From contig JACRGP010000110.1 in the NCBI GenBank assembly GCA_016217765.1, positions 1-45,453 of the forward strand: DNA of 45,453 nucleotides, written 5' to 3'. The position numbers and the translations under genes are program-made. Shown piece by piece: positions 2,113 through 45,453 of this stretch. The DNA comes from Nitrospinota bacterium (GTDB lineage Bacteria > Nitrospinota > Nitrospinia > Nitrospinales > JACRGP01). How positions within the stretch are numbered: position 1 is the first letter of the stretch; each line of letters opens with the position of its first letter. The notes under the pieces are model-generated. The model had not been told where the DNA came from, did not search any database, and was given only the letters and a program-made list of their open reading frames with translations.

Positions 2113-2147
2113 GCCGGATATTGCATGACGAAAAGACTGGAATTTCT

Positions 2148-2320
2148 CCCCCTTGTAAAGGGGGCCGGGGGGATTCGCGCTACTCGCCGTAGGGGCGGCA
2201 TGGCTCTGCCCGGATTGCCCTCGATGATACCTTGGGCGCGGTTCAAGCCTTGCACGCTGGATCCAGCGGCACGCTGGCGAGCGAAAACTTCAAATCCCCC
2301 TATCCCCCTTTGCAAGGGGG
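2148..2320. repeat. MITE-like dispersed element, copy A
   Basis: Imperfect terminal inverted repeats: left CCCCCTTGTAAAGGGGGCCGGGGGGATTC; right end read on the minus strand CCCCCTTGCAAAGGGGGATAGGGGGATTT. Related copies at 21418-21501 and 45010-45184. Confidence 0.75.
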
Positions 2321-2629
2321 GACAAAACAAAAGCGCTTTTTGCGCCGGGTATTTTTCGTCTCCAGGAGACCGGCAAGCGCCGTTCCCAAAACCCGAAGCG
2401 CCGCCATGGATCATTCCGGGGTAGGCCAGATAGCGCTTGAGTAAAATCAAAAGGAACATCTTGTCACCCTCTCCCTTGACGGGGGAGGTCAGGTGGGGGT
2501 GAAAAGCCGATCTCACCCTCCCCCAGCCCCCTCCCTCAAGGGAGGGGAGTGATTTGAGCGTCGAGTTAATCGGTTCATTTTGTCAGACGTTCTCAGTCCG
2601 TTACTACGCCGCGAAAGCTTGCTGAAACC

Positions 2630-3754
2630 ATGAACGATTCGCATTCCTCCTTCATCACGCAATCAACCGGCCGACTGCCCCTCGTGATCGACCGGGACTA
2701 CCTGGGTTTGAAAAGGTCCAACTCGCCGGAACTGGCCCGGCGCGTCCGGGACGTGTTCGAGCGCCTGAACGCCCTCGTCGGGTTTCCCGACTCGGCGCAA
2801 GGAAGGGAATCCCAGCGGATTTTCAACTCCGTCCTGCGCTACGCCTATTCCGAAACGTTGATCGACCTGGCCGACATGATCTACGTACAGCACGAACGTC
2901 CCATGGTCTTCCTCCACTTCGACCACATCAACGCCAACCTTCTCGGCGAACGGCACATCGACCCCGCGTCCCTGGAAAACCTGAACCGGCAAATGGAGTC
3001 CCTTTTTCGCGAACTGGCGCAAACGGTCCGTAGCGCCTCTCATATATGCGGCGACGCCGAGGTTGTCCGGCTCCTCGGCGAGGGCTATGCGCGGTATATC
3101 TACGAAACGGGGAACTTCCCCTGGGAGGAACCCCTGCACGACGCCATCGAGACCGGCGGCCAACCCGTCCTCGACGTCGCCACCGGCCTGGCGGGCTTCA
3201 GCCTGGTCCATGCATGGCCGGAGAGCTTTCCGAAACTGGTTTTGACGGACCGGATGCCCTTCATCGTGGAAGGGCTTTCGTTTTACAAGGAGCTGGCGGG
3301 AAAGCGCAACGTGGAGATCGTCGCCTACGATTTCTCCGGCGGGAAATTTCCGGAGCCGGCGTTCGGGCGCGTCTGGGCCAACAAGTTTCTGCACCACCTG
3401 CGCCGGGTCAACCGCGCGCAGTTTCTGCGCTGGGCGTCCGAACGGCTCGGGCCCGGAGGAAAACTCAGCGTCGTCGACACCGACCTGGAATACCGGATTT
3501 TGCGGAAAGCGGCGACCGACCCCGCCTTCAAGGAAAAACTGATCCCCGGCTACCTCGACACGCTCGTGGAGATCGAAAGAGACTTTTGCAAGAACCTGGT
3601 GGAGGACATCGTCCAGAGCGGGCTCCAGGTGACGGGGTTCGACTACAACGAATACCTGGACGAAACCGACGCCTACAGCCAGTTCCCCGGCGACGTCTTG
3701 CCGATCCGCTTCATCGGCGTGGAAATCACGGCGGAGAAAACCCAATCCCTATAG
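2630..3754 (+). CDS. class I SAM-dependent methyltransferase with a long uncharacterised N-terminal domain
   Basis: 374 aa; PVLDVATGLAGFSL (motif I-like), LVLTDRMPFIVEGL, FGRVWANKFLHHL, LGPGGKLSVVDTD. Confidence 0.65.
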   Translation: MNDSHSSFITQSTGRLPLVIDRDYLGLKRSNSPELARRVRDVFERLNALVGFPDSAQGRESQRIFNSVLRYAYSETLIDLADMIYVQHERPMVFLHFDHINANLLGERHIDPASLENLNRQMESLFRELAQTVRSASHICGDAEVVRLLGEGYARYIYETGNFPWEEPLHDAIETGGQPVLDVATGLAGFSLVHAWPESFPKLVLTDRMPFIVEGLSFYKELAGKRNVEIVAYDFSGGKFPEPAFGRVWANKFLHHLRRVNRAQFLRWASERLGPGGKLSVVDTDLEYRILRKAATDPAFKEKLIPGYLDTLVEIERDFCKNLVEDIVQSGLQVTGFDYNEYLDETDAYSQFPGDVLPIRFIGVEITAEKTQSL

Positions 3755-3836
3755 GAATCCACTCCTCTTGAGACTTCCATGAACATAGCGCGAGTCGTTT
3801 GGATGGAAAAAAGTCGGAAAGAGGTCATACGGAGAA

Positions 3837-4523
3837 TTATTTGAAAAGAGTTGTTTGTTGATACTTTGCGGTCCTGGTTCTGGACTGGCTGTGGTTCGTA
3901 TATGTATCCCATTTCGGAAAATAATCCTCGGTTTCATTTCCCCAAGCGTCCCACCCCGGGCGTCGTCCCCGCGCGAAAAGTTCCAAAAACGGCCCCGGAC
4001 TGCATTGCTCAATAACATCGTAAAGCTCGTCCGGTTTCCGCGAATGTTCGCGCTTCATCGTTTTGATGATATTGACCTGCCTTCTGCCTGGCGATAACGT
4101 CCTAAGATTGCCCTTTATGCCGAATAGAATCAATTCCGTCACGTTGCGGAAATAAAAGCCCACGCCCCTTCCGTCGGGGCCGCCGTCTTTTCTGATTTTA
4201 TGCCAGACCATGTTGGTTTTATACGCAAACCCCCAAGCCTCCATCACGGCCAATCCTTCTTTTAAAAGGGCATTTGGAACCCAGAGATACAGATGGCTGT
4301 TTTCCGCTACCGCAAGACCGACGGGAATTTCTTTAATCTCTTTCAATGCTAGAGTAGCGTATCTGTTCAACCTTTTATGCTCGGGGGCCATTTTCCCCGT
4401 ACGGTTTTGAAACATCCACGGCGGGTCGGCAAGGACGGTTTTATATTTCTTGCCACTAATAGCCTTTGCAAAATCTTGCGCCACCGGGTCTTTCATGCTT
4501 ATTATTTTAGCATTTTTCGTCAT
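3837..4523 (-). CDS. MT-A70 family DNA N6-adenine methyltransferase (restriction-modification associated)
   Basis: DPPW catalytic motif (KYKTVLADPPWMFQNRTGKM), SHLYLWVPNALL, REHSRKPDELYDVIEQCSPGPFLELFARGRRPGWDAWGNE. The tracked ORF starts at 4583; ATG at 4523 or 4496 is more likely. Confidence 0.85.
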   Translation of the reverse strand: MTKNAKIISMKDPVAQDFAKAISGKKYKTVLADPPWMFQNRTGKMAPEHKRLNRYATLALKEIKEIPVGLAVAENSHLYLWVPNALLKEGLAVMEAWGFAYKTNMVWHKIRKDGGPDGRGVGFYFRNVTELILFGIKGNLRTLSPGRRQVNIIKTMKREHSRKPDELYDVIEQCSPGPFLELFARGRRPGWDAWGNETEDYFPKWDTYTNHSQSRTRTAKYQQTTLFK

Positions 4524-5098
4524 ACGATTTTTTGGAAATCCCGAATACGAGGATCGGGCAACCGGCCCCGCCGCCGCCTTCAATCCGCGGAAGCAGTTTC
4601 GACATGTGCGTTGTGGAGGCGCCGTAAGACGATCCCCGTCCTAGATCGACAAAGATATCCTGAAGATCGTCACAGCGGGTAATTATTATGCCGATGCTGA
4701 TAGCGCGCAGGTCAAAGAGCAGACGGAAATTGTTCAAATCCCTGTCAAAGAAAGGGTCTTTGTTATTCCACTCAATTTCCAAGGCTACGCGATTTTTGTA
4801 GCAGTCAACCTTAGTGTGTGGGAGAATCCATCGCCTTGTCATCGACGTGAACAGACGTGGAAAACTCTTTTTCGACCCAACCGCGTTTTTCCAGAAATTC
4901 GTCGATAGCGTGTGCCACCTTCGATTTGCTTCCGCCACCTTCCGAAATCCAGCTTTTGCAAAACCGGAACTGCTCAAGCAAATCGATAACGTCTTTCCAT
5001 TCCAAGGGAAAATCATTTTTCAGAATTGCGCAAGCATGTTTCCATTCGCGAACCTCATATTTCTCTAGAATGGATTTTGGTAATAACTCGGTTCCCAT
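4507..5098 (-). pseudogene. BglII/BstYI-family type II restriction endonuclease, interrupted by a one-base frameshift
   Basis: ORF 5098-4811 (95 aa, ends ...DDKAMDSPTH*) and the 3' part of ORF 5016-4507 (...KVDCYKNRVALEIEWNNKDPFFDRDL...) join into one protein of about 196 aa if one base is skipped at 4811-4814. D-x8-E spacing in DCYKNRVALE matches the BglII/BstYI active-site layout as I recall it. Confidence 0.72.
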
Positions 5099-5249
5099 GA
5101 CCGGGCAATTTTAATAAAACAGAAATGAGATGTAAATGGAATAAAAAAACGGTTTAATCGAAATGATTATTTACCTGGTAGTTGAAGTCCTTGGGAAACA
5201 GGTTGCCGTTTTCTTGCCGATTGCCCATTCGACTTGCGCCTGGCTCTGT

Positions 5250-6248
5250 TCACCGATAAATCACGTAGGCGAAGAAGGCGGCGTAGAACAGGCCGCCGAG
5301 GGCGAAGACCCCGTAGGGGAGCCGGTTTTTCTTGCCGAGGAACAGCAGGATGCAGATGGACGAGGCCAGGGTGATCGCGATGCTGACATGCTCCACCGTC
5401 CCCAATTTCCATTCGGTCAGCAGGATGCCGACGATGGGGATAACGGACGACTGGAACACCATGGCCCCGGTGATGTTGCCCACCGCCAGGGTGTCCTTCC
5501 TCACTTTCAGCCAGATGACGGAATTGAGTTTTTCCGGAAGCTCCGTGGCCAGGGGCGCGATGATCAGGGCCAGGACCATCGCGGAGACGGCGAAATGGGC
5601 GGCGATGCTCTCCACCTGGTTCACGAACACCTTGGCGCCCAGGATCATCAGGGCGAGGGCGGCGAACACTTGAACGGCCACCAGGGCCATATTGGGGTTG
5701 TCGTTCTTTTTCGCGATGTACAGCGGGGCGAGGTCTTCGACGCCTTCTCCCGGATGTTTCAGGGTCTGATACACATAAACCGCGTAAATGCCCGCCAGCG
5801 CCAGGGCGACCAGCCACTTGAGCGCGGCCGATTGCAAAAACGAAGCGGACACCGCGACGGAAAAGGCGACGAGAAAAAAGACCAGGTCCCGTCTCATGTG
5901 CGGGTTATTGATCTCCGCCGCCGGCGAGTCCCGCCGGCCCATTTTATGGAACGTGAATATGGACGCGCCCACCACGGCCATGGCGATGGTGGACAGCATC
6001 AACGGCGCGCCGAGGATGGCGCCCGTGCTGATCTCGTGCCCCAGCGTCTTGTCGCGCGCCAGGAATATGGCGAGGATGGGGATGATGGTTTCCGGGAGCG
6101 CGGTGCCGATGGCCGCCAGGATACTGCCCACCGCCCCTTGCGTCAGGTTCAATTTATCGCCCAGCCACTCGACGCCGTTGGTGAACAGCTCCGCCGCCAG
6201 GAGGATCAGGACGAAGGACGCTATGAGGAGGATGAAGGTAAGAGTCAA
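5250..6248 (-). CDS. calcium/sodium:cation antiporter, YrbG-like
   Basis: 332 aa polytopic protein with duplicated motifs GSILAAIGTALPET and LALIIAPLATELPEK. Confidence 0.8.
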   Translation of the reverse strand: MTLTFILLIASFVLILLAAELFTNGVEWLGDKLNLTQGAVGSILAAIGTALPETIIPILAIFLARDKTLGHEISTGAILGAPLMLSTIAMAVVGASIFTFHKMGRRDSPAAEINNPHMRRDLVFFLVAFSVAVSASFLQSAALKWLVALALAGIYAVYVYQTLKHPGEGVEDLAPLYIAKKNDNPNMALVAVQVFAALALMILGAKVFVNQVESIAAHFAVSAMVLALIIAPLATELPEKLNSVIWLKVRKDTLAVGNITGAMVFQSSVIPIVGILLTEWKLGTVEHVSIAITLASSICILLFLGKKNRLPYGVFALGGLFYAAFFAYVIYR

Positions 6249-21319: not shown

Positions 21320-21417
21320 GGATGATCCATGGCGGCGCTTCGGGTTTTGGGAAATGAACTCGCCGGCGTCTCCTGGAGAGGAAAAATACCGGACGCGAAA
21401 AGCGCCTTGGTTTTGTC
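21320..21417. repeat. dispersed flank sequence, inverted copy of 2321-2415
   Basis: GATCCATGGCGGCGCTTCGGGTTTTGGGAA...TCTCCTGGAGA...GAAAAATACC matches the reverse complement of 2321-2410. Confidence 0.75.
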
Positions 21418-21501
21418 CCCCCTTGCAAAGGGGGATCGGGGGATTTGGACCCGTTGTCCGCGATCGCGGCTTGAATCCCCCCGGACCTCTTTACAAGGGC
21501 G
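21418..21501. repeat. MITE-like dispersed element, short copy C
   Basis: Left CCCCCTTGCAAAGGGGGATCGGGGGATTT; right end read in reverse CGCCCTTGTAAAGAGGTCCGGGGGGATTC. Confidence 0.7.
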
Positions 21502-44940: not shown

Positions 44941-45009
44941 CCGATTATTGAGACCTGTATAAATAATGCCTTATCCCGGATATTGCGTGAGAAAAAGAAT
45001 GGAACCGCT

Positions 45010-45184
45010 CCCCCTTGTAAAGGGGGCCGGGGGGATTCGCGCTACTCGCCGCAGGGGCGGCATGGCTCGGCCCGGATTGCCCTTGATGACGCTCATTCGC
45101 CATCCGGGTCAAGCCAGTTGGGTCCCAGCGTCACGCTGGCGCGAACGGAAGTTTCAAATCCCCCTGACCCCCTTTGCAAGGGGG
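45010..45184. repeat. MITE-like dispersed element, copy B
   Basis: Left CCCCCTTGTAAAGGGGGCCGGGGGGATTCGCGCTACTCGCCGCAGGGGCGGCATGGCTC; right end in reverse CCCCCTTGCAAAGGGGGTCAGGGGGATTT. Same orientation as copy A. Confidence 0.75.
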
Positions 45185-45227
45185 AATAAAGGCAAGGCGC
45201 TTTTTGTTACAAGGAGGATCTCTCATC

Positions 45228-45263
45228 CGGGCGCCGCATGGCAAGAAAGATTTTCGAATTTTG
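45228..45263 (+). repeat. 36-bp perfect direct repeat, copy 2
   Basis: CGGGCGCCGCATGGCAAGAAAGATTTTCGAATTTTG. Confidence 0.95.
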
Positions 45264-45453
45264 TTAAAAGCGCCTAACAAAATGAAGTCCCCGCAACTTC
45301 CTCCCCCTTCCAGGGGGAGGCGAGGAGGGGGTGAAAAGCCGGGCAAGCGCCCGGAGGCGACGCGGCGATGACGCTGACGCGATCGCCGGGACGCAATTTC
45401 CGCCTCGGCGTCAGCCTGAGGCGGCGTCGGGTCCAGCGTTCACGCTGGTCACC

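Follow-up and report, generated by a model that had tools for sequence, protein, structure and literature searches.

The 45,453-nucleotide stretch of a Nitrospinota bacterium contig analysed here (hereafter the window) carries a BstYI-like restriction endonuclease gene that is split by a single extra base in the assembly, next to an intact MT-A70-class methylase gene. In the only congener compared, the corresponding place between the same flanking genes is taken by a DpnI homologue, itself frameshifted in its assembly, beside a 3′ stump of that methylase. By gene content and synteny in this one pair of genomes, the site appears to be an exchange locus, at which two alternatives of presumably opposite methylation preference occupy one place. 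We refer to the window genome as G000 and to the congener as G001; given that G001 was the sole congener, the exchange rests on one G001 contig.

The split endonuclease and its methylase partner

The restriction-modification (RM) cassette of the window comprises the following features:
3837..4493, minus strand: MT-A70-class adenine methyltransferase, intact (PF05063, E = 9.3e-29; PADLOC MTase_II, 8.4e-92)
4507..4816, minus strand: C-terminal half of the endonuclease in the other frame (PF09195 positions 71-162, E = 3.8e-32), with catalytic D98, E107, and E109 (numbering of the joined protein)
4808..4816, minus strand: single extra base (CCCACACACTAAGG), where relatives read SPTHKVD in one frame
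4811..5098, minus strand: N-terminal half of the BstYI/BglII-like endonuclease, 95 codons with a premature TAA at 4811-4813 (PF09195 positions 1-65, E = 1.5e-08)

The N-terminal half ends in ...DSPTH followed by the TAA codon, and one base further on the frame resumes as KVDCYKNRVALEIEWNNKD... and continues until 4507; in the ORF reading of the window, the frame of the C-terminal half is open on the minus strand from 5016 to 4507. The two halves fit consecutive stretches of the PF09195 (Endonuc-BglII) profile, and the joined protein of 196 a.a matches its positions 1-162/163 at E = 2e-46 in a profile search, a match far beyond chance to a BstYI-like endonuclease that is otherwise complete. Given that relatives are continuous through the break (SPTHK(V/I)DC(Y/F)KN), the extra base can be placed within about 4808-4816. 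Residue 95 is the last one before the break, just ahead of the catalytic Asp98, and D98, E107 (a D-x8-E pair), and E109 are invariant in an alignment of 25 homologues; from this position, the frameshift is predicted to take the active site away from the window endonuclease. With a one-base frameshift and a TAA before D98, the gene is a broken member of PF09195. The coding sequence is undecayed on either side of the break, which, if real, is therefore recent.

The frame of the endonuclease is unbroken in 78 of the 80 best-scoring homologues (67-83% identity, many phyla, one-genome-per-species contigs), a set that is score-ranked and hence biased toward intact endonucleases, and SPTHK(V/I)D or a near variant stands in a single frame at the break position among these 80. 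A second sample, 369 genomes of one class, held eight endonuclease copies, all of them open. In-frame stops were seen in the endonuclease genes of loci L049 (3001-3585), with an intact methylase, and L020 (59-646), where the methylase is split too. In nearly all relatives the endonuclease is followed closely by the methylase, and the same endonuclease occurs on the Nitratiruptor phages NrS-2 and NrS-3, on a Mesorhizobium phage, and on some viral contigs. The endonuclease/MT-A70 pair as a whole is 67-83% identical over many bacterial phyla (L006-L085), a spread that would imply frequent horizontal transfer.

Sequence and profile searches of the PDB with the endonuclease returned no matches, and a structure was reached by fold search alone. 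An AlphaFold model of the endonuclease from an intact relative, L006 (pLDDT 89.5), retrieved BstYI as the best match (1vrr, 2p0j, 1sdo; E about 1e-7), followed by BamHI and OkrAI, with D98 and E107 placed on two adjacent strands. Judged from this model of a relative, the family is predicted to adopt a BstYI/BamHI-like PD-(D/E)XK fold. BstYI shares with the window family its BglII/BstYI membership, an RGATCY target (presumed for the window system), and the best fold match of the intact relative, whereas the sequence identity between them is only 18-19%.

The start of the methylase is most likely the ATG at 4493 rather than the TTG at 4583 given in the mechanical ORF list. The protein is 63-79% identical to relatives along its length, with an intact frame and a DPPW motif. 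The window pair resembles R.Nph3I/M.Nph3I of phage NrS-3 in gene order, spacing, and the combination of PF09195 with MT-A70 (69% identity for the endonuclease, 69% for the methylase); the phage pair is intact and phage-borne, whereas that of the window is chromosomal, its endonuclease is frameshifted, and its specificity is assigned by similarity. Via cell-free synthesis, R.Nph3I was characterised as cutting RGATCY and M.Nph3I as making RG6mATCY, a probe methylated by M.Nph3I was cut by DpnI in vitro, and 6mA was found to block R.Nph3I but not BstYI (PMC10734518). Since this experimentally shown specificity belongs to a pair 69% identical to that of the window, we infer RGATCY as the probable target of the window system.

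The initial annotation, made from the sequence alone, had described a BglII/BstYI-family endonuclease split by a single-base frameshift, a fused protein of about 196 a.a, a D-x8-E catalytic pair lying after the break so that activity should be lost, and an intact neighbouring methyltransferase. Each of these descriptions is borne out by the results above, including two of the comparisons it had suggested, with the Endonuc-BglII profile and with the frame in relatives.

We rejected the idea that a lack of RGATCY in the cassette signals self-protection, the cassettes of 78 relatives being richer in this site per kb than their flanks. Genome-wide avoidance of RGATCY gave no usable signal either, AGATCT being low in both G000 and G001 and GATC not. 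The two genomes also have in common an orphan-looking D12 adenine methylase (C87:223-933, L195 in G000; C133:12664-13374, L194 in G001), which matches PADLOC PD-Lambda-5_B at 147 bits and falls under the Dam cut-off.

Reality of the break

As a proxy for the indel background, we compared 651 kb of G000 with 728 kb of G001 gene by gene. The frame was intact in 65 of 66 comparisons one way and in 49 of 51 the other (114 intact against 3 shifted in total), and at that rate the chance of a hit on a 590-base gene is about 1-2%, real mutations included. This bears on whether the organism has an intact endonuclease, and hence an ordinary working RM system, with the extra base being an assembly or sequencing error. 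Such an error would fit a lone single-base event in a gene without other decay, and the assembly is a draft of metagenome type (200 contigs, 71% complete); against it stand the rarity of indels between the two genomes, a break site that is no homopolymer, and a break in the rival G001 nuclease as well, two independent errors being improbable. Both the window endonuclease and the G001 nuclease are frameshifted in their assemblies, and we presume that both breaks are real and cost activity. Because the indel background is low, we consider a real inactivation of the window endonuclease distinctly probable, and an error a good deal less so, though by no means negligible.

The frame resumes directly past one base at the stop codon, as would be seen if programmed +1 frameshifting at CAC-TAA yielded low levels of active endonuclease. 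However, relatives have the endonuclease in one frame at this very position. A CAC codon in the P site allows no re-pairing in the +1 frame, and we know of no slippery motif that matches the site, both of which count against such a mechanism; we regard it as very improbable. It is slightly harder still to credit that the halves work together as a split enzyme, or that they act as a small regulatory protein. Neither half is decayed at the protein level, but no start codon is seen in frame in the C-terminal half from the break to the first catalytic residue, the block from D98 to E109 depends on the fold of the N-terminal half, and among relatives no further example of a split endonuclease was seen.

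The proposal of the initial annotation, namely inactivation of the endonuclease with retention of its methylase, is thereby supported, given that the family, the break, the intact methylase, and the catalytic loss all hold. Of the two alternatives that it had raised, a +1 frameshift at the stop codon has the intact frame of relatives against it, and an assembly error keeps some room but is less likely in view of the rarity of indels between the two genomes. That the site is an exchange locus could be seen only by comparison with G001, beyond the reach of that annotation.

The equivalent locus in the congener

The locus aligns with that of G001 as follows:
2630..3754, plus strand: flanking SAM-dependent methyltransferase-like gene (sub-cut-off Pfam methyltransferase matches; syntenic with G001)
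3966..5251: segment replaced in G001 by 902 bp (L094 9066-9967), with homology resuming at 3965 (methylase) and 5252 (end of the exchanger)
5250..6248, minus strand: gene of the Na+/Ca2+ exchanger family on the other flank, at the same place in G001 with 96% identity

The flanking genes have the same order in both genomes at 95-97% identity, and identity between L094 and the window is 94.6% as far as 3965 and 96.3% from 5252 onward. One homology break lies inside the methylase gene, of which some 45 codons at the 3′ end survive in G001 (98% identity across window 3700-3965; the protein encoded by the stump is 82% identical over 48 residues, junction included), and the other lies at the last codons of the exchanger gene. 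No full MT-A70 gene was found in G001. A 24-codon ORF upstream of the window endonuclease (about 5230-5157) has no conserved counterpart in relatives.

The G001 insert is a DpnI homologue, with its joined protein matching PF06044 (3.7e-79) and PF17726 (4.6e-31) as well as DpnI itself over the full length (PDB 4esj, 5.5e-88). The catalytic domain, the winged-helix domain, and the methyl-pocket residues expected of the DpnI family are all present, with the catalytic residues and Leu129, Arg135, Trp138, and Gly140 of the pocket conserved. The frameshift in this gene falls between the catalytic and winged-helix domains. Among 77 genomes of the phylum, this is the sole DpnI-family copy.

The GC3 of both cassettes is 0.46-0.59, compared to 0.82-0.88 in neighbouring genes, which points to probable horizontal acquisition of both. 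No direct repeats of at least 12 bases were found around the G001 cassette and no 8-mers are shared by its two junctions, so the mechanism of exchange leaves no visible trace there. The shared site could be a coincidence, with the two cassettes having entered a general insertion hot spot independently and methylation preference being irrelevant. Horizontal acquisition of both cassettes and junctions lacking repeats that would reveal an exchange route agree with this, but G001 keeps the 3′ end of the same methylase beside its DpnI-like gene, and both systems act on a GATC core. We consider such a coincidence unlikely. Given the methylase 3′ end beside it, the DpnI cassette instead appears to sit within the former RM locus. 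Elsewhere in the window (2143-2593, 21322-21499, and 44967-45342), short sequences match the same few places of L094 repeatedly at 80-100% identity, behaving as dispersed intergenic repeats would.

No DpnI was found in 50 genomes that carry the restriction system of the window, an absence that carries no information given a base rate of about 2% (seven full-length DpnI among 396 Bacteroidota). Ten Bacteroidota DpnI loci had no remnants of a BstYI/MT-A70 cassette alongside. Two of eight full-length DpnI-like copies are broken near the interdomain region, as seen in L240 (1271-2028; the same gene in L258), where the frameshift lies near residues 177-181, close to the region broken in G001. In two Bacteroidota genomes (L241 546-2277 and L243 1264-2875), an unbroken DpnI-like gene whose methyl-pocket residues are conserved is immediately preceded, on its own strand, by a Dam-family D12 methylase gene that is also intact (TIGR00571, 291 and 258 bits against a cut-off of 115). 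Since both acting on GATC should be lethal, it is probable that one partner differs in specificity or that the pair is under control. A PF05869 phage-Dam-like methylase is convergent with, and adjoins, the DpnI-like gene in three other Bacteroidota loci (L238 1419-1898, L239 2469-2948, and L258 2540-3019).

Proposed history and known exchange loci

We consider the following history likely as a whole. The ancestor of the genus would have acquired horizontally a Type II pair, a BstYI-like endonuclease and an MT-A70 methylase with an expected RGATCY target, between the Na/Ca exchanger and the methyltransferase-like gene. In the window genome, the endonuclease would have been disabled recently by the one-base insertion ahead of its catalytic residues and the methylase kept, leaving an orphan methylase with an expected RG(m6A)TCY mark; this may serve as a guard against enzymes sharing that specificity, whether left over or newly arriving. 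In the G001 lineage, a DpnI-like nuclease, later frameshifted as well, would have taken the place of the endonuclease and most of the methylase at this site. As the DpnI family cuts Gm6ATC, this nuclease could presumably be kept only after loss of the methylase, because the mark of the M.Nph3I family is exactly what DpnI cuts. It is from the methylase stump retained in G001 that we infer the order of events, with the RM pair present first and then replaced by the DpnI cassette.

For the wider reading, we see an even chance that a slot in this genus has switched between m6A-GATC marking (MT-A70/BstYI type) and destruction of DNA so marked (DpnI type), independently of Streptococcus and Neisseria and with another class of methylase, both nucleases then being silenced, so that the locus would capture both the switch and its decay. 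Taken alone, a disrupted endonuclease gene next to an intact methylase is nothing unusual, and the interest comes from the DpnI-type exchange in the sister lineage. Phages and viral contigs carry a similar RGATCY pair and would be natural targets for a DpnI-type cell. The nuclease being broken in each lineage hints that the cutting part may not persist for long. If the history holds, such a swap in an uncultured lineage from the environment, involving a BstYI-type RGATCY system and an MT-A70 methylase, would point to opposite methylation preference as a driver of these exchanges more generally.

In the literature found, reciprocal exchange between making and cutting m6A-GATC has so far been documented for two human-associated groups, and a narrow search returned no paper joining DpnI replacement with the name of the present phylum. 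For Streptococcus pneumoniae, PMC3573125 (citing Lacks 1986) places the complementary DpnI and DpnII systems at one shared chromosomal position. The pneumococcal locus resembles the present one in placing alternatives of opposite methylation preference at one chromosomal place, whereas the DpnII system there, with its pair of methylases, targets GATC and each cassette is active, compared to RGATCY, one methylase, and two broken nucleases here. In Neisseria, the DpnI-family gene drg lies within the locus of a GATC adenine methylase (dam), which it truncates; the two genes are mutually exclusive, and frameshifted drg alleles have been reported (PMC516771, PMC4269198). The G001 locus is alike in that a DpnI-family gene truncates an adenine methylase, but the gene lost in Neisseria is a Dam-type methylase, whereas in G001, a member of an unrelated phylum, the lost methylase is of the MT-A70 class and had a BstYI-type partner.
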